This document shows positions 9,810 through 47,720 of a stretch of 64,000 bases of DNA, in pieces; within the stretch, counting starts at the first letter, position 1, and every line of letters starts with the position of its first letter. The stretch comes from an uncultured Chloroflexus sp. Lineage in GTDB: Bacteria > Chloroflexota > Chloroflexia > Chloroflexales > Chloroflexaceae. The stretch covers positions 1 through 64,000 of the forward strand of contig NZ_CALFBQ010000027.1 in the NCBI RefSeq assembly GCF_937951745.1, read 5' to 3'. The notes below the pieces were generated by a model. That model saw only the letters and a program-made list of their open reading frames with translations, had not been told where the DNA came from and ran no database searches. The position numbers and the translations under genes are program-made.

Positions 9810-11337
9810 ATGATGCTGATCTCATCCCTCAGTTCACAATACAACCGCATACAGATCCTTGCCGAAGCGTGGCTAGCGCAAGGTGCGCAGGCCTTCAGCG
9901 TCTACGAACGTGGTCGCCTCTTGGCATCGTGGCCGGATGGACAGCGGATGCTACCGCCCGATCTGACGGCTCCGATCACCCGCTATAACGACGTTGTTGG
10001 TGAATTACACCTCAGCGGGCTGCGGGGCGAGATGGCTCGCCAGCGCTTGCAGGCTGAGGCGAGCCTGATCGGGGATATCTTGCAACTCGAACACGAATTG
10101 CAGTGCATGGCCGCCGATCTAGTCACCAGCCAAAATCAGCAGTTGGCACTCTACCGCCTCACCCAAGCGATGCGCGATCTGGTAACCATCCGCGAAAGCT
10201 TGGCAGCGATCGTCACCGAAGCGCAGCGGATGTTGAAGGGACGGGCCGGTTTTGCAATCTATGCGCCTGCGCAGCGTGATGATACGATTGTCGTGCAATC
10301 AACCGAGAGCGATCTCGACCCTGACCTCATCTGGCAACTATCCCGACAAGTGCAACGCGAGGATCGGCCACTGATCATCGGCGAAGATGATAGCAGATTC
10401 TCCTATCTGCCCGGCATACGCAACCTCTTGCTGCTGCCGATCCGGGTGCGCGGAGAGGTTATAGCTTGCCTTGGCATTGTCGATCGCGCTGACACCATTG
10501 GTACGCCGGAATTAAAACTGGGGCGCGCGATTGCCGATCAAGCGAGCGCCCAAATCGAACGCATCTTGCTCTACCAAGAGATGCTGGCACAGGCCCGGCT
10601 CCGTAGCGAGATGGATCGTGCCCGGCGAGTGCAGACCGCACTGCTCCCCCGGGTTTTGCCAGAGATAGCAGGGTTAGAGATCTACGCCGCTTCACGCCCG
10701 GCCCTGCAAGTCGGCGGCGATTTCTTTGATGTTATCAATCTGCCCAACCATCCGTTCATCTTCACGATTGGCGATGTGAGCGGCAAAGGCGTTTCAGCCG
10801 CTTTATTGATGTCAATGACGCGCACTGCGCTGCACAGCAAAGCGCGCTTCATGCCAGCGCCAACACCCGCGCTGGTCATGCGGCAATCGAACGCAGACCT
10901 CTACCATGATTTCACCCGCATCGGCGTCTTTGCCACCGTCTTCGTCGGCCAATATGTCGCCGAACAGCGCGCCATCACCTATGCTAATGCCGGCCATGCA
11001 CCCGTCATCTACCGTCCGCGCCACGGCGCCGCCACCTTGCTCTTGGCCGGCAACCCCCCCCATAGGAGTTGCGACCACTACTCAGGTGCAAGATGGTTAT
11101 CTACCTATGGAGCCGGGTGATCTGTTGATCGTCGCCACCGATGGCTTTCATGAAGCCCGCAATGCAGCGGACGAATTATTCGGCATCGATCGTTTACTCA
11201 TGGCAGTAAACGCACTGGCTGAACAATCGGCACGAGCGATCGCTGACGGGATCTTTCAGGTGGTGGAACACTTTAGCGCCGGCCACCCACAAGACGATGA
11301 TCAGACTTTGATCGTACTCAAAGGAGCAGCGACGTGA
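9810..11337 (+). pseudogene. GAF-PP2C (RsbU/SpoIIE-type) phosphatase, frameshifted at a poly-C run
   Basis: The first frame (9810-11120) encodes an N-terminal helical region, a GAF domain (about residues 130-260) and most of a PPM/PP2C phosphatase domain, with metal sites in QVGGDFFDV and IGDVSGKGVSAALLM. At 11054-11061 a run of eight C residues throws the frame: it continues as HRSCDHYSG and stops. The other frame continues the family correctly, PIGVATTTQ, then EPGDLLIVATDGFHEARN and the last metal Asp in DDDQTLIVLKG, ending at 11337. Seven C would restore a 508-residue phosphatase. The stop overlaps the kinase start. It would dephosphorylate the adjacent STAS protein. The cause may be sequence error, mutation or slippage. 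Confidence 0.85.
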
Positions 11338-31716: not shown

Positions 31717-32469
31717 TCACCACAACGCAAACACCTCGCTGCCCACCACCATCACAAACAGCAAGTTCAACAAAATCCCAACCACGAGACTGATCGCGGC
31801 CAACAAGAGCAAGTACATGGTGCGCCGGCGGATGAGGCGACGAAACTCGCCTTGCAACAACGCTTCGAGGGTCTGTTGTTGGGCAGCCAGCACCATTTCA
31901 ACCGGCGTGCCTTCAGTTTCGGCTTGAGCCAGCGCAGCAGTGGCATCAATCAGCTCACGGCAACGATAGCGGCGGGCAACCTCGGCCAGCGCCGCAAAGG
32001 GTCGCATGCGCTGCTCTTCACCGAGTTCGATCGCGGTGGCGACCACTTCGCGCATAGGCGCTTGGCGCGGCGCGGCCTGTGCGCAGTAGCGGCGCAAGAG
32101 CGTGCTCGGCGCTTCAAAGCTGCCAAGCGCGACGCGGATGAAGCCTATCAACCCCGGCGTCAACCGGCGCAGCTCTTGCTCCATGCGCTCACGGGCGCGG
32201 CGCGGCTGGCGCGGCCACACCAAGCCAAGCGCCAAATAGGCGGCCAGCGCCAAGCCGAGCCAGATCGGGCCGCCACTGAGCGCCGCGCCCGCACAGAGTA
32301 ATGCCAATGCTGTGCCGCCGGTCTGGCCGATGATCAACCGTTGCCGTTCGTCAAACGATGGTGTGGCAATGGGTTTCCCGCGCAATACCACGCCAAGCGC
32401 AGCCAGCAGCGCGCCGCACAACGCGGCCAGCAACGCCGGCGCAGCGGGAGTAGTTAGGACATGAGGCAT
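31717..32469 (-). CDS. tadC: TadC-like pilus assembly membrane protein (T2SS F domain)
   Basis: A 250-residue protein with N-terminal helices (about residues 8-28 and 50-80) and a C-terminal helix (about 220-245, LLLLAAISLVVGILLNLLFVMVV), between which lies a helical T2SSF-like domain. It is the last gene of the tad cluster, after tadB, as in other loci. The ATG at 32469 has GGAG upstream; the longer frame to 32499 does not. TadB and TadC form the inner-membrane platform that the TadA ATPase drives to assemble Flp pili. Confidence 0.8.
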   Translation of the reverse strand: MPHVLTTPAAPALLAALCGALLAALGVVLRGKPIATPSFDERQRLIIGQTGGTALALLCAGAALSGGPIWLGLALAAYLALGLVWPRQPRRARERMEQELRRLTPGLIGFIRVALGSFEAPSTLLRRYCAQAAPRQAPMREVVATAIELGEEQRMRPFAALAEVARRYRCRELIDATAALAQAETEGTPVEMVLAAQQQTLEALLQGEFRRLIRRRTMYLLLLAAISLVVGILLNLLFVMVVGSEVFALW

Positions 32470-32568
32470 GTATCGTACTCCTTTCGAACATATCTTCATC
32501 TGGTTCCTCAGACTTCACCTCTCGCGCCGTTCCCACAAGCTGGAGATAGGTGGCAAAGCGGGCCATTG

Positions 32569-32599
32569 TGGAGTGCAGCAGTCAAACTGCCGCACTCCA
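32569..32599. repeat. GGAGTGCGGCAGT-family hairpin repeat
   Basis: TGGAGTGCAGCAGT and ACTGCCGCACTCCA pair over 14 bases with one mismatch and a three-base loop. A second, shorter hairpin GTGCGGC/GCCGCAC lies at 32644-32668. Both lie between tadB and tadC. Confidence 0.65.
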
Positions 32600-32721
32600 T
32601 AGCATTGCTGGCGCTTTGGGTAGCGCACTGTCAACCGCGTGCGGCGGCAAGACTGCCGCACTCCGTAGCATTGCCCGATTTCACCTACCGACAAGACATA
32701 TGCCATACTCGCTAACCCGCC

Positions 32722-33639
32722 CTAATACTCCACATCTTCCACCCGCGAGAACCAGATGCCGCCGGCAATGGGGGCCAGCAGGGCCAATCCGACCATCACT
32801 GCAAAGACCATCCCCAGCGGGGTGCTGTACGCAATGCGCACTCGTTCCCACTGGGTGGCAATCAAGTAGACAGCCATCAATACACCGGCCCCGCCAACGG
32901 CCAAACCGCTATAGCGCATCTGGGCCAGCTCGGTAAGCGCCTCTTCGCGACGACGTTCCGAGGCTTGCAAGGCGGCATAGGCCGCAGCGCAGCGGCGGGC
33001 TTGCAGGTCTTGCGGTTGGTCGGCGGCGACAGCAAGGTGGTTGAGCAGGGTCGCATGGCGGGCCGCCGAAGTTTGCCCGGCCAGTGCCGCAATCACTTGG
33101 CGCATAGTGGCAATGCTGCCATCGGCCAAAGGCGCACCTTGTTGCCGGATCAGCCACGACCATTCGCTCTGCAACGGGCCAGCAGTCATATCGGCGAGCA
33201 ACCGCTCGAACGCAGTGCGCAATCCCAAACCGCCGCCGAGCAGGGCACTAAGCCGGCCAATCGCGGGAGTCAGTTCTCGCTCGAGCTGCTGGTTATAGCG
33301 CTGAGAGGCTAGTACAAAACCTACCCGTACTGCGAGCGCCGCTGCTGCCGGTGCTGCCGCCAACCCCATCCAGAGGGAACCGATGAAACCAAGCACTGCA
33401 CTCACAAGGGCTGCTGCGCCGGCAGCTATCAAGAGCGCCGTGGCCGGTTTTAGCAGTGCTGGACGCCACACTAAGGCTGGATCGAGCGCCGCCGGCGATC
33501 GCTGCTGGACCAGCCGGGCCAGCCAGCGCGCCAACGGTTGGCGCAAAACGAAGGTTGCGGTCAGTGTGATCAGTGCGGCTAGCAACGCCGGTGCTGCGCG
33601 CAGCAGCCACGCTGTTTCGGGATGGGTGAGTGTTTCCAT
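32722..33639 (-). CDS. tadB: TadB-like pilus assembly membrane protein (T2SS F domain)
   Basis: A 305-residue protein with helices near residues 12-32, 65-105 and 240-300. The T2SSF-like middle section includes LERELTPAIGRLSALLGGGLGLRTAFERLLADM, the usual TadB signature region. It sits between the large TadA-like ATPase and tadC. In the Tad system it forms, with TadC, the inner-membrane platform for pilin extension. The gap to tadC (about 250 bases) is filled by hairpin repeats, so tadC may be partly uncoupled. Confidence 0.82.
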   Translation of the reverse strand: METLTHPETAWLLRAAPALLAALITLTATFVLRQPLARWLARLVQQRSPAALDPALVWRPALLKPATALLIAAGAAALVSAVLGFIGSLWMGLAAAPAAAALAVRVGFVLASQRYNQQLERELTPAIGRLSALLGGGLGLRTAFERLLADMTAGPLQSEWSWLIRQQGAPLADGSIATMRQVIAALAGQTSAARHATLLNHLAVAADQPQDLQARRCAAAYAALQASERRREEALTELAQMRYSGLAVGGAGVLMAVYLIATQWERVRIAYSTPLGMVFAVMVGLALLAPIAGGIWFSRVEDVEY

Positions 33640-33802
33640 ATTGGCTGAACCCTTTCACTTACTCAATCTGTCGGAATCTGCTGGTACCAGCGAGCAGATG
33701 TCTGCCGTGTTCACGGGCGATTACTTCAGTTGACAAGGCATGGCGTTGCAATACCCTGCTATGCCTCGCAATGACCGCAGGCACCCTGCGGTTGCATTTA
33801 CG

Positions 33803-35788
33803 CTACGCACTTTGCGCCTGCAACGCTGCTTCACGCATACGCAACGCGGCGGCTACCGGCGTCAATGCCGCTGTGCCGACTTCACCGCTAGCAACAAGTG
33901 CATTGAGCGCAGCGTAACGCGCGTGCAACAATGCCAACGCCGTCTCATCGCTGAGGCGCGCCGGTTCAAAGTTGGTCAACAAATCGAGCGCATCGCGGGC
34001 GCGGCCCTGCGCCAATGCCTGTTCAGCGCGGTTAATGGCCACACCAGCCTCGTGATCGGTGCGCTGGCCGACAGCGATTGCCGCTACCAACACCGGCCAG
34101 CCGCCGGCTGGCGCAAACGCGGCGTAACGTTCGAGATCGGAACTCAGCTCGTCGTAAAGCGTCGCTGCCACCGCCCAGCGTCGCGCGGCCAAGGCCGTAT
34201 TGATCTGCTCATACGCGGCACGGGCCGCCTCAGCCGCTTGTTGTTGTCGCCGTGGATCCATGGCAAGGGACTGACGGGCCGCATGCACCAACCGCTCATC
34301 GTTGCGCTCAGCCCATGCCCGCCGCAAGATGGCCAACGCGCGCTCGGACGCACCGGCTTGGCGGGCCAACGCAGCTTGTACCAACGCTTCATCAACTACG
34401 GCCCGGCTACTCGCCACGGCGCGGGGCCGCTCGGCTAGCTTGAGCAACGCCAGACGTTGCGCCAGCAGCTCAGGCGTCTGATCAGCGCCACGCCAGACCA
34501 ACCGATCTCCATCAGCACGGGCCGCACAATGCCAGCGCACCCCATCAGCGGTTGGTTCAACCCATGCCAAGCGGATAAGTCTTGGCCGCAAGCCTGTAGC
34601 CGTCTCGTCACAGCCATCGAGCAACGCCACCTCATCAATATAGCGACGACCAGCCGCGCGGCTGAGATGGATCACGACATTGAAGTTGTCACAGATGTCT
34701 TCCAGCGCATTAGTGCGCCGGCCTTCGTAGAGGTACGCCCCCGGCATCGCGGCACAGTCAGCCAACCGGCTCAAGGCGCGCAAGGCTGTGCGCGCGTGAA
34801 TCGTGGTGACCACCGCATGGCCACTGACAGCGACCGCGAGGATAGCGCCAGCTTCAGCGGCGCGTGTCTCACCCGGCGCTACCAGTGAAGGCGTCTGGCG
34901 CAAGACTTCCCGCGCCGCTCGCCCAAACGCCAACGGATCGAGGCTAGTCTGCACCAGTTCGCGCGTCCACGCTGCATGGCGAACGTTGATTTCAAGCGTG
35001 TTGTCTTCGATTGTAATCACGTGCGGTTCACCCGGCCATGAATTGACAATCGCTTCCAGCAGCGCCGTCTTGCCGCAGCCAGTCTCGCCGGCGATCAGAA
35101 ACGAACAACGAGCGCGCACCAGCAATTGCAGCAGCGCAAACAAAGGTTCATCACACGCGCCGCGACGCAAAATATCGGCCAGCGTCCACGCAGTGCGACG
35201 ACCGCGCCGGATACAGATCAGCGCAGTGTCGTCAGGTGTACACGGCGGAATAGTCACGTGCATACGGGTACCGTGCGCAAGCGGCAAAGTATCTTGCGGG
35301 CGGCTGCGGTCGAGCGGCACTGCCAGCCGCGACGCCAGCACCAAGGCGCGATCCAGCGCTTGGCGCGGCGAGCTAAAGCGTTCCGGCGCAAGGGTGAAGT
35401 CAGCCCCCTCTTCCTGCACCATAATGCGGTCACCGATAATCTTCACCTCTTGGATCCGCTCGTCATCCAGATAGGGTTGGGCTGGTCCCCAACCAATCGT
35501 ATCGTGAAAGAGGCGGAGCAGGCTGGTATCGTCGGTGGGCAAACCAGCCAACGGCCCGCCGCGTTCGGTCTGGGTACCGATGGCAACCCGTAGCACGCGC
35601 AGCACCGCCGGATCACGCTCGGCAGCCGGCGCTACCGGGTCAAGCAGATCGGGTGGCAGCTCGGCGAGCAGAATCTCGCGCGCCGCTTGCAACGCCGTCG
35701 CCGCCGGATCGACTGTTGTCTGCTGCGGCATCAAATCGGCCAACCCACCCTCTTCAATCACTGTGAGAGGCCGGTACGCAGGATGCAT
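33803..35788 (-). CDS. TadA/CpaF-family secretion ATPase with helical C-terminal extension
   Basis: A 661-residue member of the type II/IV secretion ATPase family. The Walker A GETGCGKT is at 234-241; the His box TIHARTALRAL is near 329. The Walker B segment reads SLVAPGETRAAEA, where the usual hydrophobic-Asp pattern before GE(V/I)R is lost, so ATP hydrolysis may be altered. About 230 extra residues at the C terminus form TPR-like helical pairs (QINTALAARRWAVAATLYDEL, GRARDALDLLTNF). A second, standard TadA is in the same cluster. It may drive a different step (retraction or a second substrate), or act as a regulatory partner. Confidence 0.85.
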   Translation of the reverse strand: MHPAYRPLTVIEEGGLADLMPQQTTVDPAATALQAAREILLAELPPDLLDPVAPAAERDPAVLRVLRVAIGTQTERGGPLAGLPTDDTSLLRLFHDTIGWGPAQPYLDDERIQEVKIIGDRIMVQEEGADFTLAPERFSSPRQALDRALVLASRLAVPLDRSRPQDTLPLAHGTRMHVTIPPCTPDDTALICIRRGRRTAWTLADILRRGACDEPLFALLQLLVRARCSFLIAGETGCGKTALLEAIVNSWPGEPHVITIEDNTLEINVRHAAWTRELVQTSLDPLAFGRAAREVLRQTPSLVAPGETRAAEAGAILAVAVSGHAVVTTIHARTALRALSRLADCAAMPGAYLYEGRRTNALEDICDNFNVVIHLSRAAGRRYIDEVALLDGCDETATGLRPRLIRLAWVEPTADGVRWHCAARADGDRLVWRGADQTPELLAQRLALLKLAERPRAVASSRAVVDEALVQAALARQAGASERALAILRRAWAERNDERLVHAARQSLAMDPRRQQQAAEAARAAYEQINTALAARRWAVAATLYDELSSDLERYAAFAPAGGWPVLVAAIAVGQRTDHEAGVAINRAEQALAQGRARDALDLLTNFEPARLSDETALALLHARYAALNALVASGEVGTAALTPVAAALRMREAALQAQSA

Positions 35789-36098
35789 GTATCTCCTCCA
35801 TCTATAGTGGTTCGCATTTAGCTACCCAAGCCGGGCGGCTCAGGTCATTCAGGGCGGGCAGGCGACTAGCAATGCCGGTGCCTCCTACCCAAGGCCATCC
35901 CTCCCAAAAGTGAAAAGCATACCTAAAAGGGAGCGGCAACACCGACCATGAAGCGCATGAGCGTCGCGTTGGCGACAGTGCGGTTGGCTGATTGCTTGAT
36001 CGCAGCGATGTTACTGATCCATATTGCGCACGATGACGGCGAGGGCTACGCCCCGCGCAACAATAGGCATACACCTTGCCAAGCCCGCCACTCCAGCG
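35789..36098. other. 310-base gap inside the tad cluster
   Basis: No credible gene on either strand. I looked for a short Flp pilin here and found none: the minus-strand 90-residue frame is Arg/Ser-rich and has no helix. GGAGGAG before 35788 is the ribosome site of the downstream ATPase. The gap may hold an internal promoter. Confidence 0.5.
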
Positions 36099-37358
36099 TT
36101 ACGACAGCGCTGGCGCAGCAGCGCGCTGGCCTAACACCTGTTCGCTCAACCGTACCCACCAACCAACCCGCGGCAACGGCAGGCGCGGCTTCAAGCCGGC
36201 ATGCGCGCACAGCGACTCAACCACCTGATGGGTAGCGCGGGCAAACCGGCTTTGCGGGCCAAGATCGAGCATCGAAACGTAGCCATCATGTTCATCGGCA
36301 AGACTGGCGAGGCGCGGTTCGCGCGGCAAAACGCCGAGATTGCCCACCCGCGGGTAACGGCGGGCAAAGAGATCAGCCACCATGCTGATCGTCACCGTTA
36401 CCCCGCGCTCCGGCTCCATAAAGAGCAGTGAGCAACGTTCGAGCCGCTCTGGGGCCAATTCGGTAAAGTGTTCGAGCATGTGACCGACACCCATGCGTTC
36501 ACGAGCGCCGGGCGGGGTGGGCAAGATAACGCTGCCACCGGCTTGCAAAACGTGGGTAGCATAAGGCCGACGTAGATAGTCAGGCGGGGTATCAATCAAC
36601 ACCACATCGTACCCTTCCAGCGCCACAATCCCCTGATACAGCCCTTGCCAATCGGGCAGGCGTAGATCATTCTCGGCCCGCGCCACCGCATGCGAACCGA
36701 TCAGCAAGTCGATCCGCCCCCACCCTTGCTGATTGGCACGAGTATGTTCAGGCTGAAAGATGAAAGGCTGAATACCAGTCGGATTCCAATATGACGGCCC
36801 GCGCTGCACAAGATGAAGGTAGGACGGAGCGCTAGCCGGGATGCGAAACGCCGGCACCAAGCCGGGGTTTGAGATATCGCTATCCCACACTAGCACATCA
36901 AGCCCGCGCCGGCGCAGTCCTTCAGCCAACACACAGGTCGCGAAGGTCTTGCCAATACCACCTTTTGCAGCGCCAATCGCAATCACCGGCAGGCGCTGCG
37001 CGCCACCCCCGCGCCGCCGGCCAATCTGCGCACCAATCCAATCGGCCAGCGTCGCAGGATTACGTTCAGCGGTCGCCGGTAAACCGGCAGCCAACGCATC
37101 GGGCAACGCTGCCCGCGCTGGGCCGGCCAACCCCAGCATCACCCGTGTCCCCACCTGTTGGGCGCGAGCGGCCAAATCCCACAGATCGGCCAGCGGTGTC
37201 CCGCGACTATCGTCAAGGAAGATGGCATCTGGCGGTCGTGAACCGGCCAGCAACCGTTGCACCTGATCGATCCGTGATGGCGCTAATACCGCTACGTCAC
37301 GCAATTGCTCAACTTCAGCCTGCAAACCATCGATCGCGCTAAAGATGATAAGTTCCAT
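36099..37358 (-). CDS. cpaE: TadZ/CpaE-like pilus localisation ATPase
   Basis: A 419-residue protein with an N-terminal receiver-like domain (about residues 1-115, lacking a clear phospho-acceptor set) and a MinD/ParA-type ATPase domain with the deviant Walker A AKGGIGKTFA and LVWDSDISNPGL. VLIDTPPDYLR is the Walker B-like site. TadZ/CpaE proteins place the pilus machine, often at a pole. The ATG at 37358 has AAAGGAG upstream; the frame to 37394 is a weaker start. It lies between two ATPase genes of the cluster, in standard position. Confidence 0.85.
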   Translation of the reverse strand: MELIIFSAIDGLQAEVEQLRDVAVLAPSRIDQVQRLLAGSRPPDAIFLDDSRGTPLADLWDLAARAQQVGTRVMLGLAGPARAALPDALAAGLPATAERNPATLADWIGAQIGRRRGGGAQRLPVIAIGAAKGGIGKTFATCVLAEGLRRRGLDVLVWDSDISNPGLVPAFRIPASAPSYLHLVQRGPSYWNPTGIQPFIFQPEHTRANQQGWGRIDLLIGSHAVARAENDLRLPDWQGLYQGIVALEGYDVVLIDTPPDYLRRPYATHVLQAGGSVILPTPPGARERMGVGHMLEHFTELAPERLERCSLLFMEPERGVTVTISMVADLFARRYPRVGNLGVLPREPRLASLADEHDGYVSMLDLGPQSRFARATHQVVESLCAHAGLKPRLPLPRVGWWVRLSEQVLGQRAAAPALS

Positions 37359-37429
37359 AGGGGTTGCTCCTTTTGAGAATTGATAAACCACCATCGTTGT
37401 GGGTGGTTGGTCACAGCGGCGCTATGCTG

Positions 37430-38632
37430 CTACAACCGTCCCGCTCCCCATCCGGCATTGACGTAGCCGGCGCGCGCTAACCGTTCGCTGGCGCGGTCGT
37501 AACGGAGGAGCGGGTTAGTCGGGAAGGGATCGCCACTCTGGCCTTGTGCCCCTTGCGGCAAGACCTCTTCAATGGCCAACACACCACGCTTCCCGTTGGG
37601 AGCACGCCCAATTAACACTACCAACAGATTCACCACATCAGAGGTAATCAGACCGCGCACGATCTGCGCTGCCGCCTGCCCGGCGCCGGTCGTCTCGTGG
37701 GCCAAGCCGATCAGCGCCATCCGCTCTAGATTGCGCAACGCGCCCTGCACGGTCGCCGCATGGATGGTGCCCAAGCCGGGGTGGCCAGTCGCGGCGGCTT
37801 GTAACATCGCCATTGCTTCGCCGCCGCGCACCTCACCAACGATGATGTAGTTGGGCTTTTGGCGCAAGGCAAACGTCACCGCCCGGCTAAAACCGCCCGT
37901 TTCAGCCGGCGCTTCAATGTGCAAGCTGTTCGCGCTTCGCGGCAACTCGCCGCCATCTTCAATTACCACCAGCCGCATCCGCGCCCCGATCGCTTGGCTG
38001 AGCGCCGCCGCCAGCGTTGTTTTGCCGCTGCCAGTTGCCCCTGCGATCAATAGCGAAGCACCGCCGTTCAGTGCTGCTAGCAACAAATCGCTCGCCTCAC
38101 GGCTGATCACATTGCTCTGCACCAGATCATCGAGCGTTGCCCAGCGTTCGGGCAACAGCCGGATCGAAAGGCTTGGACCGGCTGGGGAGGCCCGCTGATT
38201 CGTGATTGCATAGCGCAAACCATCCACCACGCCTTGGGCAAACGCTGGCACCTCAACAGCGCCGCCATGGCAGCGTTGCACCAGTTGGCGTTGCGTCCAC
38301 TCAATCCACGCCGGATGGACTATCACGCCGGTGTTGACCATCATGCCGCGTTGGACAACAAAGAAAGGCGAATCGGGCGGGCCGTTGAAGAGAATGTCCG
38401 AGACCGCATGCTCCGGATCGCGCCAGATTTCGAGCGGGCCGTACCATGCCACCTCATGCCACTGGATCGCGCCATCAAAACCGAGCCGCGCGAAGGCTTC
38501 TGCCGGCGGCAGATGCCAGCAATCGCGTAAACGCCCGCTGCGCAGCAGCATGCGCAACTCGTCGACGATCGCGGCACCAGAGGTTGGCAAAGAAGCCGGC
38601 GTGTGCGTCAAGGTATCCCAACCGCTCTGCAT
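37430..38632 (-). CDS. cpaF: TadA/CpaF pilus assembly ATPase
   Basis: A 400-residue standard TadA/CpaF. The Walker A GATGSGKT is at 198-205, the Walker B IIVGEVRGGEA is complete, and the His box TIHAATVQGAL follows. It powers pilin polymerisation in the cytoplasm with TadB/TadC. The ATG at 38632 follows GGAAGGAGG with ideal spacing. The longer frame to 38701 has no such site. It lies between the CpaB-like gene and TadZ. Confidence 0.9.
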   Translation of the reverse strand: MQSGWDTLTHTPASLPTSGAAIVDELRMLLRSGRLRDCWHLPPAEAFARLGFDGAIQWHEVAWYGPLEIWRDPEHAVSDILFNGPPDSPFFVVQRGMMVNTGVIVHPAWIEWTQRQLVQRCHGGAVEVPAFAQGVVDGLRYAITNQRASPAGPSLSIRLLPERWATLDDLVQSNVISREASDLLLAALNGGASLLIAGATGSGKTTLAAALSQAIGARMRLVVIEDGGELPRSANSLHIEAPAETGGFSRAVTFALRQKPNYIIVGEVRGGEAMAMLQAAATGHPGLGTIHAATVQGALRNLERMALIGLAHETTGAGQAAAQIVRGLITSDVVNLLVVLIGRAPNGKRGVLAIEEVLPQGAQGQSGDPFPTNPLLRYDRASERLARAGYVNAGWGAGRL

Positions 38633-38661
38633 CAGTGAACCTCCTTCCGTGATCCTTGTCG

Positions 38662-38682
38662 GTTGCGGCAGCCGAGCTGCCG
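38662..38682. repeat. TGCGGCAGC hairpin
   Basis: TGCGGCAGC and GCTGCCGCA pair perfectly over nine bases with a three-base loop, followed by GTCCATAG as in the other members of the GGAGTGCGGCAGT family. It lies between cpaB and cpaF and could act as an mRNA processing or attenuation site. Confidence 0.55.
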
Positions 38683-38723
38683 CAGTCCATAGCCATGGCA
38701 CTCGCGTGCGCCCACACCAGCAC

Positions 38724-39530
38724 CTACTTATCGGCTTCAGCGGGCATAACCGGCGCAGTCAACTCGCTTACCGTAAACTGGCCAATGTCAAGCCGCTCAA
38801 GCACGGGTAAGATCGGCGCATCGCTGCTGTAACGTTCGCCCCACAGCGGCAGGCCAGCGGCTTGCAAGGCCCAAATCGCATGCGATTGGTACGGGGTCAG
38901 TTCGAGGTAGGCCACCTGCGCTTCGGCATCGACATAGAGCACGCGCGCGCCGCTGAGCAGTCGGCAAGCATACGGACGCAACGGCAAAGGAGATGCCGGC
39001 GGCTGCACCGTTGGCACGCGGCCCTCGGCGGCGCTGCGCGCTTGATCGCACACATCGGGCGAACCGTTGGGATCATTGAAACCGATATTGAGCCGATCGT
39101 GATGGGTCAGCGGGCCAATGGTTTCAGTGCTAAACGGCACTGGCACCATCCCCGGCGTCAAGGCCTCGCCATTCGGATAGACCGGCTGAGCCGGCGGACG
39201 CTCCGTGATCATCGACGGTTGCAACAGATCATTGGCGGCGAGATTGCGAGTCGCATACTGGCCAACCGCAAGCGATGGCGCACTGATCCCCGCCAGTTGG
39301 GCCGGACGATGGCGCGGCAACAGCACTACCGCCAGATCGTCGGCGCTTAGCCGCTGGCCGTAGGGCACATTGCGCGCCAGAATGACAACCGGCTCGCTAC
39401 TTCCAGCTTCTAGAAAGGCCAGCACGGTGAACACAGCGGTGATAATCAAACCGAGACCGATCAAGATCGCCGGGAGCGGATTGGCACGGCGACGGGCGAG
39501 CGCCTGATTGAGCGTGCCAAGAGCAGACAT
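38724..39530 (-). CDS. cpaB: CpaB/RcpC-like SAF-domain pilus assembly protein
   Basis: A 268-residue protein with an N-terminal membrane anchor (about residues 18-42, LPAILIGLGLIITAVFTVLAFLEAG) and a SAF domain (PVVILARNVPYGQRLSADDLAVVLLP, then QYATRNLAANDLLQPSMI), the signature of CpaB/RcpC. CpaB links the inner-membrane machine to the cell-envelope exit of Flp pili. No secretin (CpaC/RcpA) gene is near, which suits a single-membrane cell envelope. It lies between the TadE-like genes and cpaF. Confidence 0.86.
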   Translation of the reverse strand: MSALGTLNQALARRRANPLPAILIGLGLIITAVFTVLAFLEAGSSEPVVILARNVPYGQRLSADDLAVVLLPRHRPAQLAGISAPSLAVGQYATRNLAANDLLQPSMITERPPAQPVYPNGEALTPGMVPVPFSTETIGPLTHHDRLNIGFNDPNGSPDVCDQARSAAEGRVPTVQPPASPLPLRPYACRLLSGARVLYVDAEAQVAYLELTPYQSHAIWALQAAGLPLWGERYSSDAPILPVLERLDIGQFTVSELTAPVMPAEADK

Positions 39531-39554
39531 ACGAGTTCTCCTTTCGATACGAGC

Positions 39555-40067
39555 TTACGGTTGGCCCAAACGATCGATGGTGTCAGCCGCGCGGATGCGA
39601 GGACGCACTTCGCCCAAACCGAATAATCCGCGCAGAGTTGGTTGCAATTCGGCGCAAAGCAGTGGCGTTGCACTAGCTACGCCAGCGCATGCCCCGCCTT
39701 GCGGTAAGACTGTCCAGCGCGCAGTAGCTGCCAGCGAAACCGGATCAATCCCGGTCAATTGCGTCGCTTGCATGTTGGCGAGCAGAAATTGATGCGCTAC
39801 TTTGACAATATCCGCGCACTGACTAGGAGCGTGAATGGTCACCGCTTGGCAGGTTCGGTTGCCACGCAGGGCCTGCCCATTGCGCGCTAAAGCGGCATAC
39901 TCGATCTGCTGCACCGCCGAGCGGGTAGCCTGCTGGAGTGCATCTTCCATCACCGCCACCGCCAGCCAGAGATTGGCAAACTCGATCACCACCATCACAA
40001 AGAGCACCAACACCGGCAACATCAATGCCAGTAGCGGCAATGCTTGACCCAAACGGCGACAGTGCAT
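39555..40067 (-). CDS. TadE/TadG-like minor pseudopilin
   Basis: A 170-residue protein with one N-terminal helix (about residues 8-32, LPLLALMLPVLVLFVMVVIEFANLWL) ending in the TadE-like E-F-A-N motif, then a soluble domain with Cys pairs (NRTCQAVTIHAPSQCADI). The gene follows the 136-residue TadE-like gene after nine bases and precedes cpaB. In Tad systems such proteins are minor pilins cleaved by a prepilin peptidase and help assembly. No peptidase gene is seen here. Confidence 0.8.
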   Translation of the reverse strand: MHCRRLGQALPLLALMLPVLVLFVMVVIEFANLWLAVAVMEDALQQATRSAVQQIEYAALARNGQALRGNRTCQAVTIHAPSQCADIVKVAHQFLLANMQATQLTGIDPVSLAATARWTVLPQGGACAGVASATPLLCAELQPTLRGLFGLGEVRPRIRAADTIDRLGQP

Positions 40068-40076
40068 GCGGGCCTC

Positions 40077-40487
40077 CTACTGCTGATCACGTTCGGCTGC
40101 GCGAGTGGCGCGAGCGCGTACCACGATCTCGTCGCCGAAGGGCAACAGGGCGACCGGCATCCATAGCGCGGCGCGATACCGAACCTCGACCGTAATCGGG
40201 TCATACCGGCGGCACGGCTGGCGCGGGCACGAGATCACCACTTCACTCGCGGTCGGCTCAATCCCAAGGCTGCCGGCCAAGGCTTGACGAGCCGCCGTTT
40301 CGGTAACGGTGCGATTGCCGCCAGTGAGTGCGGCCTGATGCGCCGCTGCACGCGCCGCTTGGCTAACGGCATAGTGGGTAAGCAGTATCTGACCGATCGA
40401 GAAGAGACCGACGACCAAGGTCAATAAGATCGGCAAGGCTAGCGCCATCTCGATGAGGGTTTGGCCGCGCCGGTGAGCTTGTCGCAT
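40077..40487 (-). CDS. tadE: TadE-like minor pseudopilin
   Basis: A 136-residue protein opening RRGQTLIEMALALPILLTLVVGLFSIGQILL, the TadE signature: basic start, Gly-Gln-x-x-x-E, then one membrane helix. The periplasmic-side part has a Cys pair (SCPRQPCRRY). AAAGGA lies ten bases before the ATG. It is paired with the next TadE/TadG-like gene and belongs to the tad operon. Confidence 0.85.
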   Translation of the reverse strand: MRQAHRRGQTLIEMALALPILLTLVVGLFSIGQILLTHYAVSQAARAAAHQAALTGGNRTVTETAARQALAGSLGIEPTASEVVISCPRQPCRRYDPITVEVRYRAALWMPVALLPFGDEIVVRARATRAAERDQQ

Positions 40488-40709: not shown

Positions 40710-41270
40710 TTAATTGCCCGGCGCAACGAGTGAGCGCGGCGCCAGCAGGTTGATCTCGATCTGACCGGTTACAAGCTGGCGCGCCGGATTGGGCAGCGGG
40801 GCGACCCGCACTGGCGGTAGCGGCACCCCGCCAATGTTGCCCGGCGCTTGATTGACGATCTGCACTTCTAGCTCGATCTGAATCGTGAGCCGGGCGCGAT
40901 CAAGCACGTCAGCCGTGTAGAGGTAGACATCAGGGCGCATCGCCGGCGCCGGCGGGCGGCTCCAGTAGAGATGGAGTTGATCATCGAGATCGCGTTCGCG
41001 TAGCACGCTGGCGCCAAGCTGATCGCGGCTCTGGCCGCCAAGATAGCGATAGATGCAGCCGGTCAGCAGTTGCGGGGTGAGAAGCGGGCGCGCTCCCGGA
41101 CGACAACCGGCTATGCCGCGGCTGTCGGCAGCACGCGGATCAAAGCGTTGCCCACCCACTGCAACCTCGGCCAAACTCCAACCCACGACGCGCGCTTGGT
41201 AGGCATACGGCCACGGTAATGGCTCATCGGCAAAGGTCAGGTTCGCCAGTTGCGGAGTCAGATCAAGCAC
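40710..41270 (-). CDS. C-terminal part of the surface protein, after an in-frame TAG
   Basis: A 186-residue frame that lies exactly in the same frame as the 1323-residue surface-protein gene upstream: the TAG at 41283-41285 is followed by CCA TCG GGC GAG and then this GTG. It has no signal peptide, no membrane helix and no convincing ribosome site of its own, so as an independent gene it would make an unexported orphan in a cluster of exported proteins. A beta-rich domain seems to begin before the TAG (GDLRVAIRSTLDP) and to continue after it (LTIQIELEVQIVN). It is best read as the tail of the upstream protein, either recoded or cut by a nonsense mutation. Confidence 0.6.
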   Translation of the reverse strand: MLDLTPQLANLTFADEPLPWPYAYQARVVGWSLAEVAVGGQRFDPRAADSRGIAGCRPGARPLLTPQLLTGCIYRYLGGQSRDQLGASVLRERDLDDQLHLYWSRPPAPAMRPDVYLYTADVLDRARLTIQIELEVQIVNQAPGNIGGVPLPPVRVAPLPNPARQLVTGQIEINLLAPRSLVAPGN

Positions 41271-41282
41271 CTCGCCCGATGG

Positions 41283-44200
41283 CTACGCAATTGCCGTGCC
41301 ATCCGAGAGGTAAATACCATTCGTTTGGTTCGCGTCGTTCGTCGCCGGATCGAGCGTCGAGCGAATAGCCACCCGCAAATCACCACCTGCTGCGCCGATG
41401 GTAGAGGGCGGCGGCACCACATTGATCGTAAGCGCGGCGACATTGTCAACGGGATCATCCGCTGGCGTGCTGGTCGAGATGCGGGCCGTCGCCGGCAAGA
41501 CCGCGCCGGCAGGCACGCTCGTCTGCACCACAACCTCGATAATACCGGCAGCTTGCGAATTCAGCGTCCCTAGATCCCAGCGCAATCGGCGACCGGTTTG
41601 GCTCGTAGACGGACGGCTAGACCCCACTAGTTGCACATCAGCCGGAAGCTCCAGTTCAAGCATCGTATTAGCAGCAGCGCGAGTTTGGACAGGGCGACGG
41701 CGATACAGGTTGCCGTAGTCAATCGTGTAGGCAAACACGCTGCCCTGCCCGACAATGCTGGCAGGCGCGCGCAATTGCACAAATGGGTTAGGACGCACGA
41801 TCGTGACCATGGCGCTGGCCGTGTTATCAGCCTGATACGCGGGTAGTTCGGGGGTGGTCGTCGCAATGGTGGCCTGCGCCGCCAGTTGATCAACCGCGAT
41901 CGTCGCCGGCAGAGTGAGACCAATGCGCAACTCGCCGCTCGCCGCCGGCAGCACTTCGCCAAGGGCACAGGTTAGCTGATAGCCATTACGCTGGCAGATC
42001 GGCGGCAAGGTGGTGAGCGTCGCTGTGCTCGGCACATCAACCGTGATCGTCACAGCACGAGCCAGCCCATTGCCAAGGTTGCGGTAGCCAACCACCAGCT
42101 CGGTCGCCTCACCCGCGGCTGCCGGCGCCGGCGCAAAGGCGAGACTGACTGACGGATTGGGACGCACATGGGCCGTGCTCGCCGTCGCCGTATTATCTGT
42201 CAGTGAGTCACCGGCAGTCGTGGTCGTGACAGTGGCCCGGTTATCAAGCCGGTCGGCTGCGGTTGGCCGTGGCTTTGTCTGCACACTAACAATAACCTCT
42301 TCATTTGGCGCAATGCTGCTAATCGTGCAGCGCAATGTATGCTGCGCCCCTTCGTAGCGGCATGTTCCCGCCGGTGCGCGCAAGATGCTAGTAAAATCAA
42401 CCTGCGCCGGCAAGGGATCGGCGATCGTCACATTAGCCGCCGGTGCGCTGCCGCGATTCACCACCCGCAGGGTGTAGAACAGTGCATCACCGCTGAGCAC
42501 CGCTACCGGCGCTTCTTTGCTGATGCTAAGTTCAGCTCTGATGAGACGGGTATGATGGCTGGCACGATTGTTCGTCAGATCATTGTCTGGCGGGTTAGCA
42601 CTGATTGTCGCCACAGCGGTAATAGTCTGACTCAGACTGGCGCCAAGGGCGGTTGGTGCGCGCCCACGAACCTCGATCGTGCCGCTTGCGTTGGGTGCAA
42701 GCTGCGCAAATTGCCAGACCAGTACCGAACCACTCTGGCTGGGTGGCCGACTAGCACTGAGAAACGTTACCCCAGACGGCAACTCCATCCGCACTTCGAC
42801 GTTGGCAGCGGTACGATTGCCAGTATTGTGATAGGTCATCGTATAGGACAGTTCATCATTAACAATTGCTTCAGCCAACCCATGTAGTGAGATACGGAGA
42901 TCCATGTGAGTTTGGCCCAGCAACCCAACATCAATATCAGGTCGAATCGCACCGTGGGTTAGCTCTATCACTGCACTCGAGCCGGTTTGTTGGTCAATAT
43001 CGCTATCACGCTGCGGATTACCACCGCGACCAGACGACGTGAAGGAATACTCTGTCGGTAACACTGCCACCACACGGTATCGACCGGGTTCGAGGTTTGT
43101 AAAGGCATAGCGACCTTGGGCATCACTCACAACGGTGCGGGGGTAGGGTTGCACCGCCGGTGCTGGGCCGGGTAATCGCTCTAGACGCAACACCACGCCG
43201 GCTATACCGGATTCGTTGGTGTCTTGCACACCATTACCATTGTGATCGAGCCAAACCCAATCACCGATCGTCGCCGGTTGAAATTGGCGGGTCAGGCCGA
43301 TATCGACGTGACGAACCGTCTCTTCGCGCAATGGCAGGGGCAATGCGGCGCCGGTCACGCCATTGCCGGTATGCTGGCCGGCAAACTCAACCACACCAAA
43401 AACCGGATGGGCATCGCTATCACGGGTATCATCGGCACCAGCATTCATAGGCGCATACACCATGCCGGCTAACGGGCGGCCAACCGCAAACTCAGTCGGT
43501 GCCACGCGAATTCGCAATGCACGGTTCGGCGGCACGGCGATGGTATAACTCCCGTCAGCCGCCGTAGTGACTGCACCTAGCGGCAAAGGTTCATCCGAAG
43601 CCATTACTTCAAGCTTTACGTTGCTTAGCGGCGGTTCATTCGTATCACGAATGCCATTCCCGTCAGTGTCATGCCAAAGCTGACCGCTAATAAACGCATA
43701 CGTACAAAGGAGTTCCAGATCGCCTAATGATGTAGATTTATTGCTACCGGGCGGGATTAAGGTAATGGTTCGAGATGGATGTGGCTGGTTCGCCTCATAC
43801 ATCATCAAGCCAGCCGAATTGTTACCAAGCAATGAGGTGGCGACTATCGTTTCTGTACCATTAGGACGCGGAATGGCGAGGAGGCTACCCATGTGGTTCT
43901 CGACGTGGGCTGGATGCTCCCCAGAGTAGTGATGTATATGATCGTTAAGCCAGTCACTATGATCGGCTAGGTACTTATGATCTGTTTGATTTGGATTAAC
44001 TAGATCGATACGCGACCCGTTCGAGAGCGAAAGCGTCCACGCTCCCTGCATCAACTGGTAATTAAGCGTATCGCCTTGGCTGATAGAGGTATAGTGTTCA
44101 ACAGGCGGTGGACCGAAGAAGGTCAGGTCACCAATCCGATCACGCAAGGCGAGACGTAAGAACTGATTGTCAGGGCTAAACGCAAGATCGGTAAGGAAAG

Positions 44201-45254
44201 GCTGAGCATGAAAAATAGCACGACTTTTTCGATATACCTGTAATCTTTCGAGTTGCTCATTCCACGGATTCCAGCCATAAATCTGATCATTTGGTTTTAA
44301 CGATCGCAATACCTCCATGTACGTTGAAGAGCGGAAACGATTTTGGAACGTCTCAGTCATCAGTTCTTGCGTGATAATCAAGCTCCAGTCACCTGTATCA
44401 ACCGTCAAAGCAAGCACATGGGCTGAAGGTTTTCCAAATGAAGCCGCAGTATCGGTAACGCCAACAAACAATTGCACACTACGATTATCCGAAATAGGTG
44501 CAAATTCGAGGGCGAAAGGACGCAGATTGGGTAGAATTCGCTGATCTGAGCTAATTAACTGGAAAGGTATGGCTATTGGCGTCAAACGACGGGGAAGCGC
44601 TTGGGTAATATCGTAGCGTTCAATGTGTCGTGCCGCGAGGTTTACGATGTACAGAGTAGCTCCATCTGGACTGATCTCCATATCACCCAATCCAGTTTTG
44701 CCGACTGCACTCAATACGGCTGTATCGTTCCGATCCGGCGAAAGTCTATCTTGACCTGCATTGGGTATAACAAACGACGCCCGCCATTGACCTTCGTTAA
44801 AGCGATATTCATAGACTCCACCCGGACCAAGTGGGCCAAAACTCGTAAATCGGCGGGTGAAGGCGGAGGCAAACAACCGTGGCATGCCGCTAATTGCGCC
44901 ATCATCGTAAGCAAGACCGTAGACTGAACCAATACCGGTATGTTGGGCAATGCGTTGTTGATGTCCGGCATTAGTTGTGCCAATTGGCGCAAGTGGCTGT
45001 TTAACCCCACTTATCGTTACCCGAACAAGTGCCGGATCATTCGCCGACACCGGTGCATAGATGGTGTCAGCAAAACAGGTCGTCGCTAGCGACAGATCGT
45101 CGTTTAGGCAAGGCACCACACTCGCAAAGCCGGTTATACCGGTTTGAGCGACAGCCGGTAACGGTGTCAGTGATGGTAACGTTACAAAGAGGATGGCCAC
45201 AACCAACCCAATCAACCAGCGTAGATGGCGACACATAGGGATACGATTGTTCAC
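41283..45254 (-). CDS. large secreted SdrD_B/DUF11 surface protein
   Basis: A 1323-residue exported protein to the TAG. The GTG at 45254 has AGGAGG four bases upstream; a signal peptide follows (LIGLVVAILFVTLPSLTPL, cleavage near AVA-Q). The first 450 residues look like a propeller (GLGDMEISPDGATLYIVN, FLTDLAFSPDNQFLRLAL). Two SdrD_B-like calcium-binding repeats follow (DTDGNGIRDTNEPPL and DHNGNGVQDTNESGI), then four DUF11-type Ig-like repeats, each with a conserved (N)TATAS/ASTS-type end. It probably stands on the cell surface as an adhesin. It precedes the tad genes on the same strand. An in-frame TAG ends this frame. Confidence 0.85.
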   Translation of the reverse strand: MNNRIPMCRHLRWLIGLVVAILFVTLPSLTPLPAVAQTGITGFASVVPCLNDDLSLATTCFADTIYAPVSANDPALVRVTISGVKQPLAPIGTTNAGHQQRIAQHTGIGSVYGLAYDDGAISGMPRLFASAFTRRFTSFGPLGPGGVYEYRFNEGQWRASFVIPNAGQDRLSPDRNDTAVLSAVGKTGLGDMEISPDGATLYIVNLAARHIERYDITQALPRRLTPIAIPFQLISSDQRILPNLRPFALEFAPISDNRSVQLFVGVTDTAASFGKPSAHVLALTVDTGDWSLIITQELMTETFQNRFRSSTYMEVLRSLKPNDQIYGWNPWNEQLERLQVYRKSRAIFHAQPFLTDLAFSPDNQFLRLALRDRIGDLTFFGPPPVEHYTSISQGDTLNYQLMQGAWTLSLSNGSRIDLVNPNQTDHKYLADHSDWLNDHIHHYSGEHPAHVENHMGSLLAIPRPNGTETIVATSLLGNNSAGLMMYEANQPHPSRTITLIPPGSNKSTSLGDLELLCTYAFISGQLWHDTDGNGIRDTNEPPLSNVKLEVMASDEPLPLGAVTTAADGSYTIAVPPNRALRIRVAPTEFAVGRPLAGMVYAPMNAGADDTRDSDAHPVFGVVEFAGQHTGNGVTGAALPLPLREETVRHVDIGLTRQFQPATIGDWVWLDHNGNGVQDTNESGIAGVVLRLERLPGPAPAVQPYPRTVVSDAQGRYAFTNLEPGRYRVVAVLPTEYSFTSSGRGGNPQRDSDIDQQTGSSAVIELTHGAIRPDIDVGLLGQTHMDLRISLHGLAEAIVNDELSYTMTYHNTGNRTAANVEVRMELPSGVTFLSASRPPSQSGSVLVWQFAQLAPNASGTIEVRGRAPTALGASLSQTITAVATISANPPDNDLTNNRASHHTRLIRAELSISKEAPVAVLSGDALFYTLRVVNRGSAPAANVTIADPLPAQVDFTSILRAPAGTCRYEGAQHTLRCTISSIAPNEEVIVSVQTKPRPTAADRLDNRATVTTTTAGDSLTDNTATASTAHVRPNPSVSLAFAPAPAAAGEATELVVGYRNLGNGLARAVTITVDVPSTATLTTLPPICQRNGYQLTCALGEVLPAASGELRIGLTLPATIAVDQLAAQATIATTTPELPAYQADNTASAMVTIVRPNPFVQLRAPASIVGQGSVFAYTIDYGNLYRRRPVQTRAAANTMLELELPADVQLVGSSRPSTSQTGRRLRWDLGTLNSQAAGIIEVVVQTSVPAGAVLPATARISTSTPADDPVDNVAALTINVVPPPSTIGAAGGDLRVAIRSTLDPATNDANQTNGIYLSDGTAIA

Positions 45255-45349
45255 GGTGCCTCCTGCGTCGGTTTGAAGCATGCACTCACCTATAGCGACG
45301 CGCACCGCGTCACTCAGTGAGTGCAAACTATGTTGCGAACAACGGTCTT

Positions 45350-46168
45350 TTATCGGCCAACGAGGGGAACGTAGACAGTATGCGAGACGGTGGATGTAAT
45401 CATCACTGGATCAATCGCTCGACCATTGCCGGCGCGATCAAACAATTGAATACGTAAAGCTGAGGCTTGTTGTGGTGGTGCCTCGAATAACACGTTTAGT
45501 CCAAATGGCGTGCTGGTGGCAGCGAGTGTCGCTGCTGACCCTGCTTGCACTTCAGACGCCTCCAACACGTGGTAAACCGGTTCGCCAAGTTCAACACCAT
45601 CTGAGGTAACAAACTGCCACTCAACCGCCCACGGCAGAGGAGCATGTGCATCGTTAAATTGCCCGGTAATAGTTAATCTTGTGCCATCTTCGACAACTGT
45701 CGCTGTGGCACGAATATCTGCCAGTGTTGGCGGCGTTACATCGCGCACAATAGAGACATCGTGTACAACTACATTTGAAACCCGATCGAACAGGGCCATA
45801 GAAAGGCTAATCGGTCGTTCCACCGCTGGCAAGGGATATTCCGCTTCATATCGATCCGGAACATCCGCTTCAAAGATATACAAGACTGTCTGATCAATGC
45901 TAATACCTCCATCTCGCAGTCCAGCACACTCATTATCGCCAATGATGCTGACGAGTATTGTATCTTGATTGGTATATCCGCTCATTGCTCGCTGCGGCGT
46001 GACTAAGTTTATCTGAACATCCACCGAGTTATCCTTGAAAAACCCTCCCTGAAGTGAAATAAGGTTACCCCCTTGATCACGTATCTGGGCATGTAGCTCA
46101 TATTGCTGACACACAACCCCAGTATCTGGCGGCGCTTGAATGATGATATTGCCATAGCCGGCATACAC
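45350..46168 (-). CDS. beta-rich secreted protein, downstream of an in-frame TAG
   Basis: A 272-residue frame with Ig-like beta domains (IRDQGGNLISLQGG, VTPPTLADIRATATVV, ALRIQLFDRAGNGR) and the C-terminal end VSHTVYVPLVGR, an end type I recall from exported Chloroflexus proteins. It has no signal peptide of its own. It is in the same frame as the short frame 46184-46411, which carries a signal peptide and ends in TAG; five sense codons separate that TAG from this GTG. The two parts look like one secreted protein of 353 codons including the amber codon. Confidence 0.65.
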   Translation of the reverse strand: MYAGYGNIIIQAPPDTGVVCQQYELHAQIRDQGGNLISLQGGFFKDNSVDVQINLVTPQRAMSGYTNQDTILVSIIGDNECAGLRDGGISIDQTVLYIFEADVPDRYEAEYPLPAVERPISLSMALFDRVSNVVVHDVSIVRDVTPPTLADIRATATVVEDGTRLTITGQFNDAHAPLPWAVEWQFVTSDGVELGEPVYHVLEASEVQAGSAATLAATSTPFGLNVLFEAPPQQASALRIQLFDRAGNGRAIDPVMITSTVSHTVYVPLVGR

Positions 46169-46183
46169 AAAAACTATCGGCTG

Positions 46184-46411
46184 CTAGGGGTCTGCATCAG
46201 TAGGCGGCTCATTCCAGCGCCAACGCACCTCGTTAAAACCAACCGGTAATTGCGAAAATTCTACGATAACATTTCCATCACTACGAACTTGACGAAATAC
46301 GTACATAATTATCTCTGACTGCGCCGCCACTGGTTGCACTACCCAAGAGCAGAACCAGATCAGGCCAAGGAAAAGAAACAGCATAGGATGACGACGGTTA
46401 TGGAAAGACAT
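46184..46411 (-). CDS. signal-peptide N-terminal part of the same protein, ends in TAG
   Basis: A 75-residue frame. AAGGAG lies seven bases before the ATG at 46411. The signal peptide is clear: MSFHNRRHP, hydrophobic MLFLFLGLIWFCSWVV and the cleavage region VAAQS. The mature part (MYVFRQVRSDGNVIVEFSQL) is only about 45 residues before the TAG at 46184-46186, too short for a normal secreted domain. The frame continues past the TAG without shift into the beta-rich 272-residue segment. Gap to the upstream lipoprotein gene is 16 bases, suggesting one operon. Confidence 0.6.
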   Translation of the reverse strand: MSFHNRRHPMLFLFLGLIWFCSWVVQPVAAQSEIIMYVFRQVRSDGNVIVEFSQLPVGFNEVRWRWNEPPTDADP

Positions 46412-46427
46412 CGTAAAGCTCCTTATC

Positions 46428-47720
46428 CTAGCGCGTAAGTACATACCGCGCGACATCACGGCCCAAGGTCATTCCCTGCATGCCATCCATAAACCAATGC
46501 ACACCACCGATGATTCGTGAGCGGGTAGCATCAGCGGCACGCTCGACGAGCAGGTCTTTGTGGTGTGGGAAGGTGACAATTAGCAGATTGGCCGCCGCCG
46601 AGCTAAAAGCGGCATGGCCCGACGGGTACGAAGGGTGGGGTGGGGTGGGCAACACCGGTTGCCATACCGGATCGACTTCAGCCATCCATTGTTCGGGCCG
46701 CTGGAAGCCATACAGGTATTTGTTATACCAACACGCGACAGCAGTATCGTGCATCGCGACGCCGAGATGGGCAAGGAGCGACGCCGTCTGCATTTCATCG
46801 AGCTTGTTGACTAACGCCATCGTAATCGCCGTCTCAAACCAGAGACCGGCAGGCGTGACGGTACCCACATCGGCGTGCCAATACCATGCCAGTTCGCGAT
46901 GCTCATCAGTCAGCACTTTCTGCCCTGCTCGAAAGTTAGTGCGTTCGCGCTCCATCTCTTCACTGTCCCACGCTGGCGGTGGCGGTAACACAATGGCATC
47001 ACCGGCGGGCAGGGCAACCGTCTTGACCGTGCCCCAATGCGGGTCAAGCGGGAGCTTGTTCGTGTTCCACCCACCACTTGCCGGCAAGGCAATCTCATAC
47101 ACCGCATTGCTGCCATCCTGCTGCGCCCACGCGACCACCTCGTGCCCCACCGCTTGCCCAATCTGGAAGCTGCGCGCGAGTTGTTCCGGCGGCACCGGAT
47201 CGCGCAGCCACAGCCCATGCCAACGTGACACGTAGACATACCCCTCAATAATCTCGTTGTGTTGGGGATGGAGATAGCGCAACACCGGCCACATCGCGCC
47301 GGCCAGCAGCGCAGGGTTATCAACCGGCTGCTCCTGTGCGGCTTCACGCCCGACCATTAATGCATCGTTGAGCGCCACCGATACCAGCATCAATTCACGG
47401 GCGGCCCGATTGGGCGGCAGCCCATCACGGGCAATTAATTTGAGCGTGGTCTTGAGCCATTCGACGGCAACTGTGTGTGCCGTGTTCGTTGGTGGCGCTG
47501 GCGGCAAGTCGGCAAATGGTGCGTTTGCTGCGGCAGCTAATACCGCGCTCGTATCGGTCATTAACCAAAGCCGCGGCTTCAATGGGCTAATTAGCCTGCC
47601 ACTCGCCACAGGAGCTTGGGTAGGCGCTGGCGTGGGCCGGGATGGTTCGGGGGCGCTGGTCAATGGCGCAGCGCAGGCGGTCAGGACGAAGAGCAAGACG
47701 AACAGGTGGACGAATCGCAT
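46428..47720 (-). CDS. vanadium haloperoxidase/PAP2-like lipoprotein
   Basis: A 430-residue exported lipoprotein (lipobox LLFVLTAC, then a Pro/Thr-rich spacer). The vanadium-dependent haloperoxidase/PAP2 phosphatase motifs are in order: YGFQRPEQWM (K/RxxxxxxRP-like), PSYPSGHAAFSSA (PSGH) and SRIIGGVHWFMD (SRxxxxxHxxxD). It is either a haloperoxidase or an acid phosphatase outside the membrane; the sequence does not decide. It heads the run of secreted-protein genes before the tad cluster. A ribosome site GAGGTG precedes the ATG. Confidence 0.88.
   Translation of the reverse strand: MRFVHLFVLLFVLTACAAPLTSAPEPSRPTPAPTQAPVASGRLISPLKPRLWLMTDTSAVLAAAANAPFADLPPAPPTNTAHTVAVEWLKTTLKLIARDGLPPNRAARELMLVSVALNDALMVGREAAQEQPVDNPALLAGAMWPVLRYLHPQHNEIIEGYVYVSRWHGLWLRDPVPPEQLARSFQIGQAVGHEVVAWAQQDGSNAVYEIALPASGGWNTNKLPLDPHWGTVKTVALPAGDAIVLPPPPAWDSEEMERERTNFRAGQKVLTDEHRELAWYWHADVGTVTPAGLWFETAITMALVNKLDEMQTASLLAHLGVAMHDTAVACWYNKYLYGFQRPEQWMAEVDPVWQPVLPTPPHPSYPSGHAAFSSAAANLLIVTFPHHKDLLVERAADATRSRIIGGVHWFMDGMQGMTLGRDVARYVLTR

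Follow-up and report, generated by a model that had tools for sequence, protein, structure and literature searches.

Two adjacent genes coding for surface proteins in an uncultured Chloroflexus sp. have, with a probability of about 0.8, been broken by recent and independent nonsense mutations of the same kind, each turning a tryptophan codon (TGG) into an amber stop (TAG). Both genes are found on the minus strand of the window, by which we mean the whole 64,000-nucleotide stretch of contig NZ_CALFBQ010000027.1 that was analysed, where they are flanked by intact genes for a PAP2-superfamily lipoprotein on one side and for a Tad pilus on the other (Table 1).

Table 1. Coordinates of the two interrupted genes and of the features around them in the window
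Feature	Position	Strand	Remarks
Tad pilus genes, intact, downstream of gene 2	31717..40487	-	
Gene 2, surface protein with SdrD-B/DUF11 repeats, interrupted frame starting with GTG (~1513 codons)	40710..45254	-	
Second in-frame TAG, in gene 2	41283..41285	-	TGG (Trp) in 6/6 relatives covering the site
Conserved hairpin in the gene 1-gene 2 spacer, immediately 5′ of the gene 2 ribosome site	45277..45329	-	z -3.5
Gene 1, secreted three-domain Ig/FnIII-like protein (predicted), interrupted frame	45350..46411	-	353 codons plus TAA
In-frame TAG of gene 1	46184..46186	-	Trp in 7/7 orthologues
Gene 1 signal peptide, ~residues 1-31	46319..46411	-	Hydrophobic helix 8-24; AQ/S-type end conserved in orthologues
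Gene 1 ribosome-binding site AAGGAG	46419..46424	-	Sequence
PAP2-superfamily lipoprotein gene, intact, upstream of gene 1	46428..47720	-	

The frame of gene 1 opens at ATG 46411-46409 with a signal peptide reading ...VVQPVAAQS, continues for 75 sense codons to TAG 46186-46184, and then resumes for another 277 sense codons up to TAA 45352-45350; apart from that TAG, neither a second stop nor a frameshift was found between 46411 and 45350. An earlier note, made from the letters alone, had described this layout (ribosome site, signal peptide, TAG end and 277 open codons past it), and its coordinates hold on the minus strand. Its claim that a single gene is split by the TAG is likewise borne out, as homology runs unbroken across the stop and each orthologue is one frame. 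Judged from the sequences, the frame past the TAG is not open by mere chance, given this unbroken homology and the retention in the window of 37 of the 39 downstream residues on which the other seven proteins all agree; the 7 upstream invariant positions are all kept too, and intact orthologues behave alike.

A search of 41 relatives with the read-through translation of gene 1 as query recovered the gene from six further Chloroflexus genomes, in each as one stop-free frame of ~350 residues; on contigs, the window protein alone gave no match and the gene 1 alignment as query retrieved five loci. The orthologues used here thus comprise six whole genomes, one of them C. islandicus isl-2, and the MAG SKYG21. 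In the codon alignment, the column of the TAG is TGG in all six whole genomes and codes for Trp in SKYG21 as well. As all seven orthologues have Trp at this position, the gene 1 TAG is a derived TGG-to-TAG change; no indel adjoins the column, and a frameshift or bypass at the TAG was hence rejected. The sense codon for which the earlier note proposed to look is therefore present, and the arrangement that it named as contrary to a split gene, namely orthologues with two separate genes, was sought among them and not found. This bears on the idea that the two halves now act as separate functional genes, with re-initiation beyond the stop, as at GTG 46168: a GTG does lie there, 15 bases past the TAG, but it has no ribosome-binding site, the second part has no signal peptide and the gene is single in every orthologue, so that we regard this reading as the most improbable of those considered.

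Where the flanks could be read, gene 1 of the orthologues is preceded by a PAP2-family gene and followed by an SdrD/DUF11 gene, as in the window. C. islandicus isl-2 (contig NZ_LWQS01000049.1) and six other Chloroflexus-group genomes display the order PAP2, gene 1, hairpin, SdrD/DUF11 and, where read, Tad, and the loci of seven genomes of the group share with the window the gene 1 signal peptide and a similar C-terminal end. Their frames are intact with Trp at both sites, whereas the window has TAG at both. One relative, G005, bears gene 1 twice, in two differing versions that each lie at the end of a contig (L066 on G005:C308 and L067 on G005:C304), one adjoining PAP2 and the other the SdrD gene; these are either tandem copies or two strains within one MAG. 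The genome of the window itself gave only one match to gene 1, and a second intact copy was accordingly rejected.

The lesion in gene 2, at 41283-41285, came to light when every frame in the syntenic region of C. islandicus was compared with the window, and was absent from the earlier note, which had only the gene 1 TAG. Past this stop the frame remains open for 190 codons and reaches the same end as in C. islandicus; gene 2 is intact in all six comparable relatives, each with TGG at the site. The protein is thereby deprived of its last 189 residues, a segment that is ~80% identical to distant relatives vs 64-68% for the preceding one; a Pfam search with it gave nothing, and its predicted structure has a mean pLDDT of 40. 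Both genes therefore display, as do nonsense pseudogenes, a derived stop in place of an ancestral sense codon in a frame that is otherwise homologous.

On the branch leading to the window, the post-stop codons of gene 2 have undergone 5 nonsynonymous and 16 synonymous changes (dN/dS ~0.11), the values for the two nearest branches being 0.07 (C. islandicus) and 0.19 (G005). Selection on these codons has been strongly purifying along the branch of the window itself, which argues that the lesion in gene 2 is recent. Each gene has a single lesion and no further decay was seen. This state admits two explanations, namely that the stops arose recently or that translation of the frames continues. A recent nonsense mutation, one of the two explanations offered in the earlier note, is supported for gene 1 by the orthologous Trp codons and the undecayed downstream frame.

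Some of these features would also be expected of a sequencing or consensus error, or of an allele carried by the minority of a mixed population, such that the true genome or most cells have TGG at one or both sites: each site differs by one base from an invariant Trp codon, the codons farther downstream show full purifying selection, the assembly is in 94 contigs, and the window also has a frameshift at a run of eight Cs in an unrelated gene. However, substitution errors are unlikely to strike the Trp codons of two adjacent genes when ~180 compared gene pairs yield no other Trp-to-TAG change, and the homopolymer difference is another type of error that may even be real slippage; we therefore hold this explanation to be improbable, albeit the most serious of the alternatives. 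The unrelated gene (9810-11337, plus strand), which we read as a probable SpoIIE/RsbU-like phosphatase, loses its frame at ~11054-11061, its C. islandicus counterpart being one 507-codon frame; this is either slippage-type variation or a homopolymer error.

The other prospect, that the frames are still translated, was addressed through the decoding apparatus and a survey of stop usage and interrupted frames in 1.24 Mb of the source genome, window included. TAG terminates 102 of 385 coding-like genes, about a quarter, RF1 is encoded (prfA, 506 bits), and a tRNA search of the genome gave 48 hits, one of them tRNA-Trp (CCA) and none with a CUA anticodon. A reassignment of TAG to a sense codon is rejected on these grounds, as is the amber suppressor tRNA for which the earlier note had suggested a search. 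Nor is there a genome-wide excess of interrupted genes: the 48 stop-interrupted coding-like frames amount to 3.9 per 100 kb, a rate lying between those of two relatives (5.3 and 2.5). Among gene pairs compared with two relatives (103 and 79, gene 1 being left out as it falls under the identity cut-off), gene 2 presents the only Trp-to-TAG change within a true coding frame; the other flagged internal stops that were inspected lie, in our reading, near misplaced starts, at match ends or in shadow frames.

Programmed read-through, the other explanation in the earlier note, thus fares poorly. In its extended form, regulated amber read-through at both UAGs would let two co-regulated surface proteins each be made in a short and a full-length form, and it could account for the same lesion in two adjacent genes, for the openness and conservation of both frames and for the placement of each TAG at a formerly invariant Trp. 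Yet no relative has a stop at either site, no RNA structure beyond chance was detected 3′ of the TAGs (fold z +1.0 and +0.5), their 3′ contexts differ (CAGCCG vs CCATCG), and the 45-residue half-domain makes no evident product. Taken with the ordinary use of TAG as a stop, the presence of RF1, the lack of a CUA tRNA among the hits and the unexceptional rate of interrupted frames, this renders it very unlikely; neither general nor programmed read-through has positive support, and we found no paper on read-through in Chloroflexus. A CUA tRNA could nevertheless be encoded in sequence missing from the assembly, which is 99.4% complete. Even less probable is the more specific proposal of a matched amber pair, both stops being read through, that jointly throttles two co-operating surface proteins of the pilus locus; were it true, it would amount to recoding used as a switch in a bacterium that has no dedicated suppressor tRNA.

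An AlphaFold2 model of the read-through gene 1 product (mean pLDDT 83) displays a signal helix followed by an all-beta region, predicted to form three tandem Ig/FnIII-like beta-sandwich domains. In Foldseek searches its nearest solved structures are the Ig repeats of adhesins, namely SiiE (2yn3) and an ice-binding adhesin (4p99), with E-values down to 2e-8 and TM-scores below 0.45 over the whole chain. These adhesin repeats are tandem beta-sandwich domains like those predicted here; by contrast, a PDB sequence profile found no similarity to solved structures. Thus, with its signal peptide and modeled domains, gene 1 would qualify as a secreted Ig/FnIII-like protein with a putative role in adhesion; Pfam and NCBIfam searches assigned it to no family, and IMG/VR searches gave nothing. 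SdrD-B and DUF11 domains, on the other hand, are recognizable in gene 2. The gene 1 proteins also share a C-terminal motif, (V/I/L)(Y/H/F)(V/I/L)P(L/F)xxR (45353-45380, minus strand, in the window), that may act as a sorting signal in the secreted proteins of Chloroflexus.

Gene 1 and the N-terminal part of gene 2 lie in a variable part of the locus. The PAP2 protein is 93-95% identical to those of the two nearest genomes and groups with C. islandicus and G005 in its tree. In contrast, the gene 1 protein is 37-43% identical to its orthologues (39-43% to the two nearest genomes), the gene 2 N-terminus is 52-53% identical to the two nearest genomes, and the trees of both place the window away from C. 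islandicus and G005, in the case of gene 1 with other species. This disagreement, seen along with a hypervariable block at 43700-46430 between flanks of 84-92% DNA identity to the nearest genomes, makes the segment at 43.7-46.4 kb look like an exchanged or fast-diversifying surface-protein block. The hairpin between the genes, with paired changes at 7 of its 18 pairs across seven genomes, has no Rfam match and no other occurrence with a convincing E-value in the 1.24 Mb; it may act in cis as a regulatory RNA on gene 2.

Directly downstream of gene 2, the Tad genes, intact in comparison with C. islandicus, code for two TadE-like proteins, a SAF/CpaB-like protein, a TadA-like ATPase, a MinD/TadZ-like protein, a second ATPase-like protein and two TadB/TadC-like membrane proteins (for the last three, the names come from sequence only). 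Tad genes occur in Chloroflexales, whose surface motility has been proposed to be powered by Tad pili (PMC7332563). From their position, we infer that genes 1 and 2 act with the Tad pilus.

Under the preferred reading of two recent nonsense mutations, translation would most likely end at each TAG, such that gene 1 would yield a mature fragment of ~45 residues, less than one Ig-like domain, and gene 2 a protein minus its well-conserved end, both presumably non-functional. By our rough estimate, two random nonsense hits among ~100 genes would be adjacent with a chance of ~2%, which points to shared selection or to a link in function; the same improbability weighs against the independence of the two identical lesions and leaves room for a common cause. 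The two proteins probably cooperate as adhesins that belong to the Tad pilus or sit next to it, and the loss of one would have eased selection on the other, unless both fell to a single selection. This would be a linked loss in which two conserved surface proteins next to a Tad cluster were disabled alike while the pilus genes stayed intact, and, given the motility role proposed for these pili, the strain would offer a natural test of the contribution of both proteins to aggregation or gliding.

The event itself is of an ordinary class, recent nonsense inactivation, to which the twin in the adjacent gene adds interest. As in bacterial pseudogenes formed by recent nonsense mutation, a single derived stop sits in a conserved, recently selected frame; unlike them, here two neighbouring genes share the identical Trp-to-amber change.
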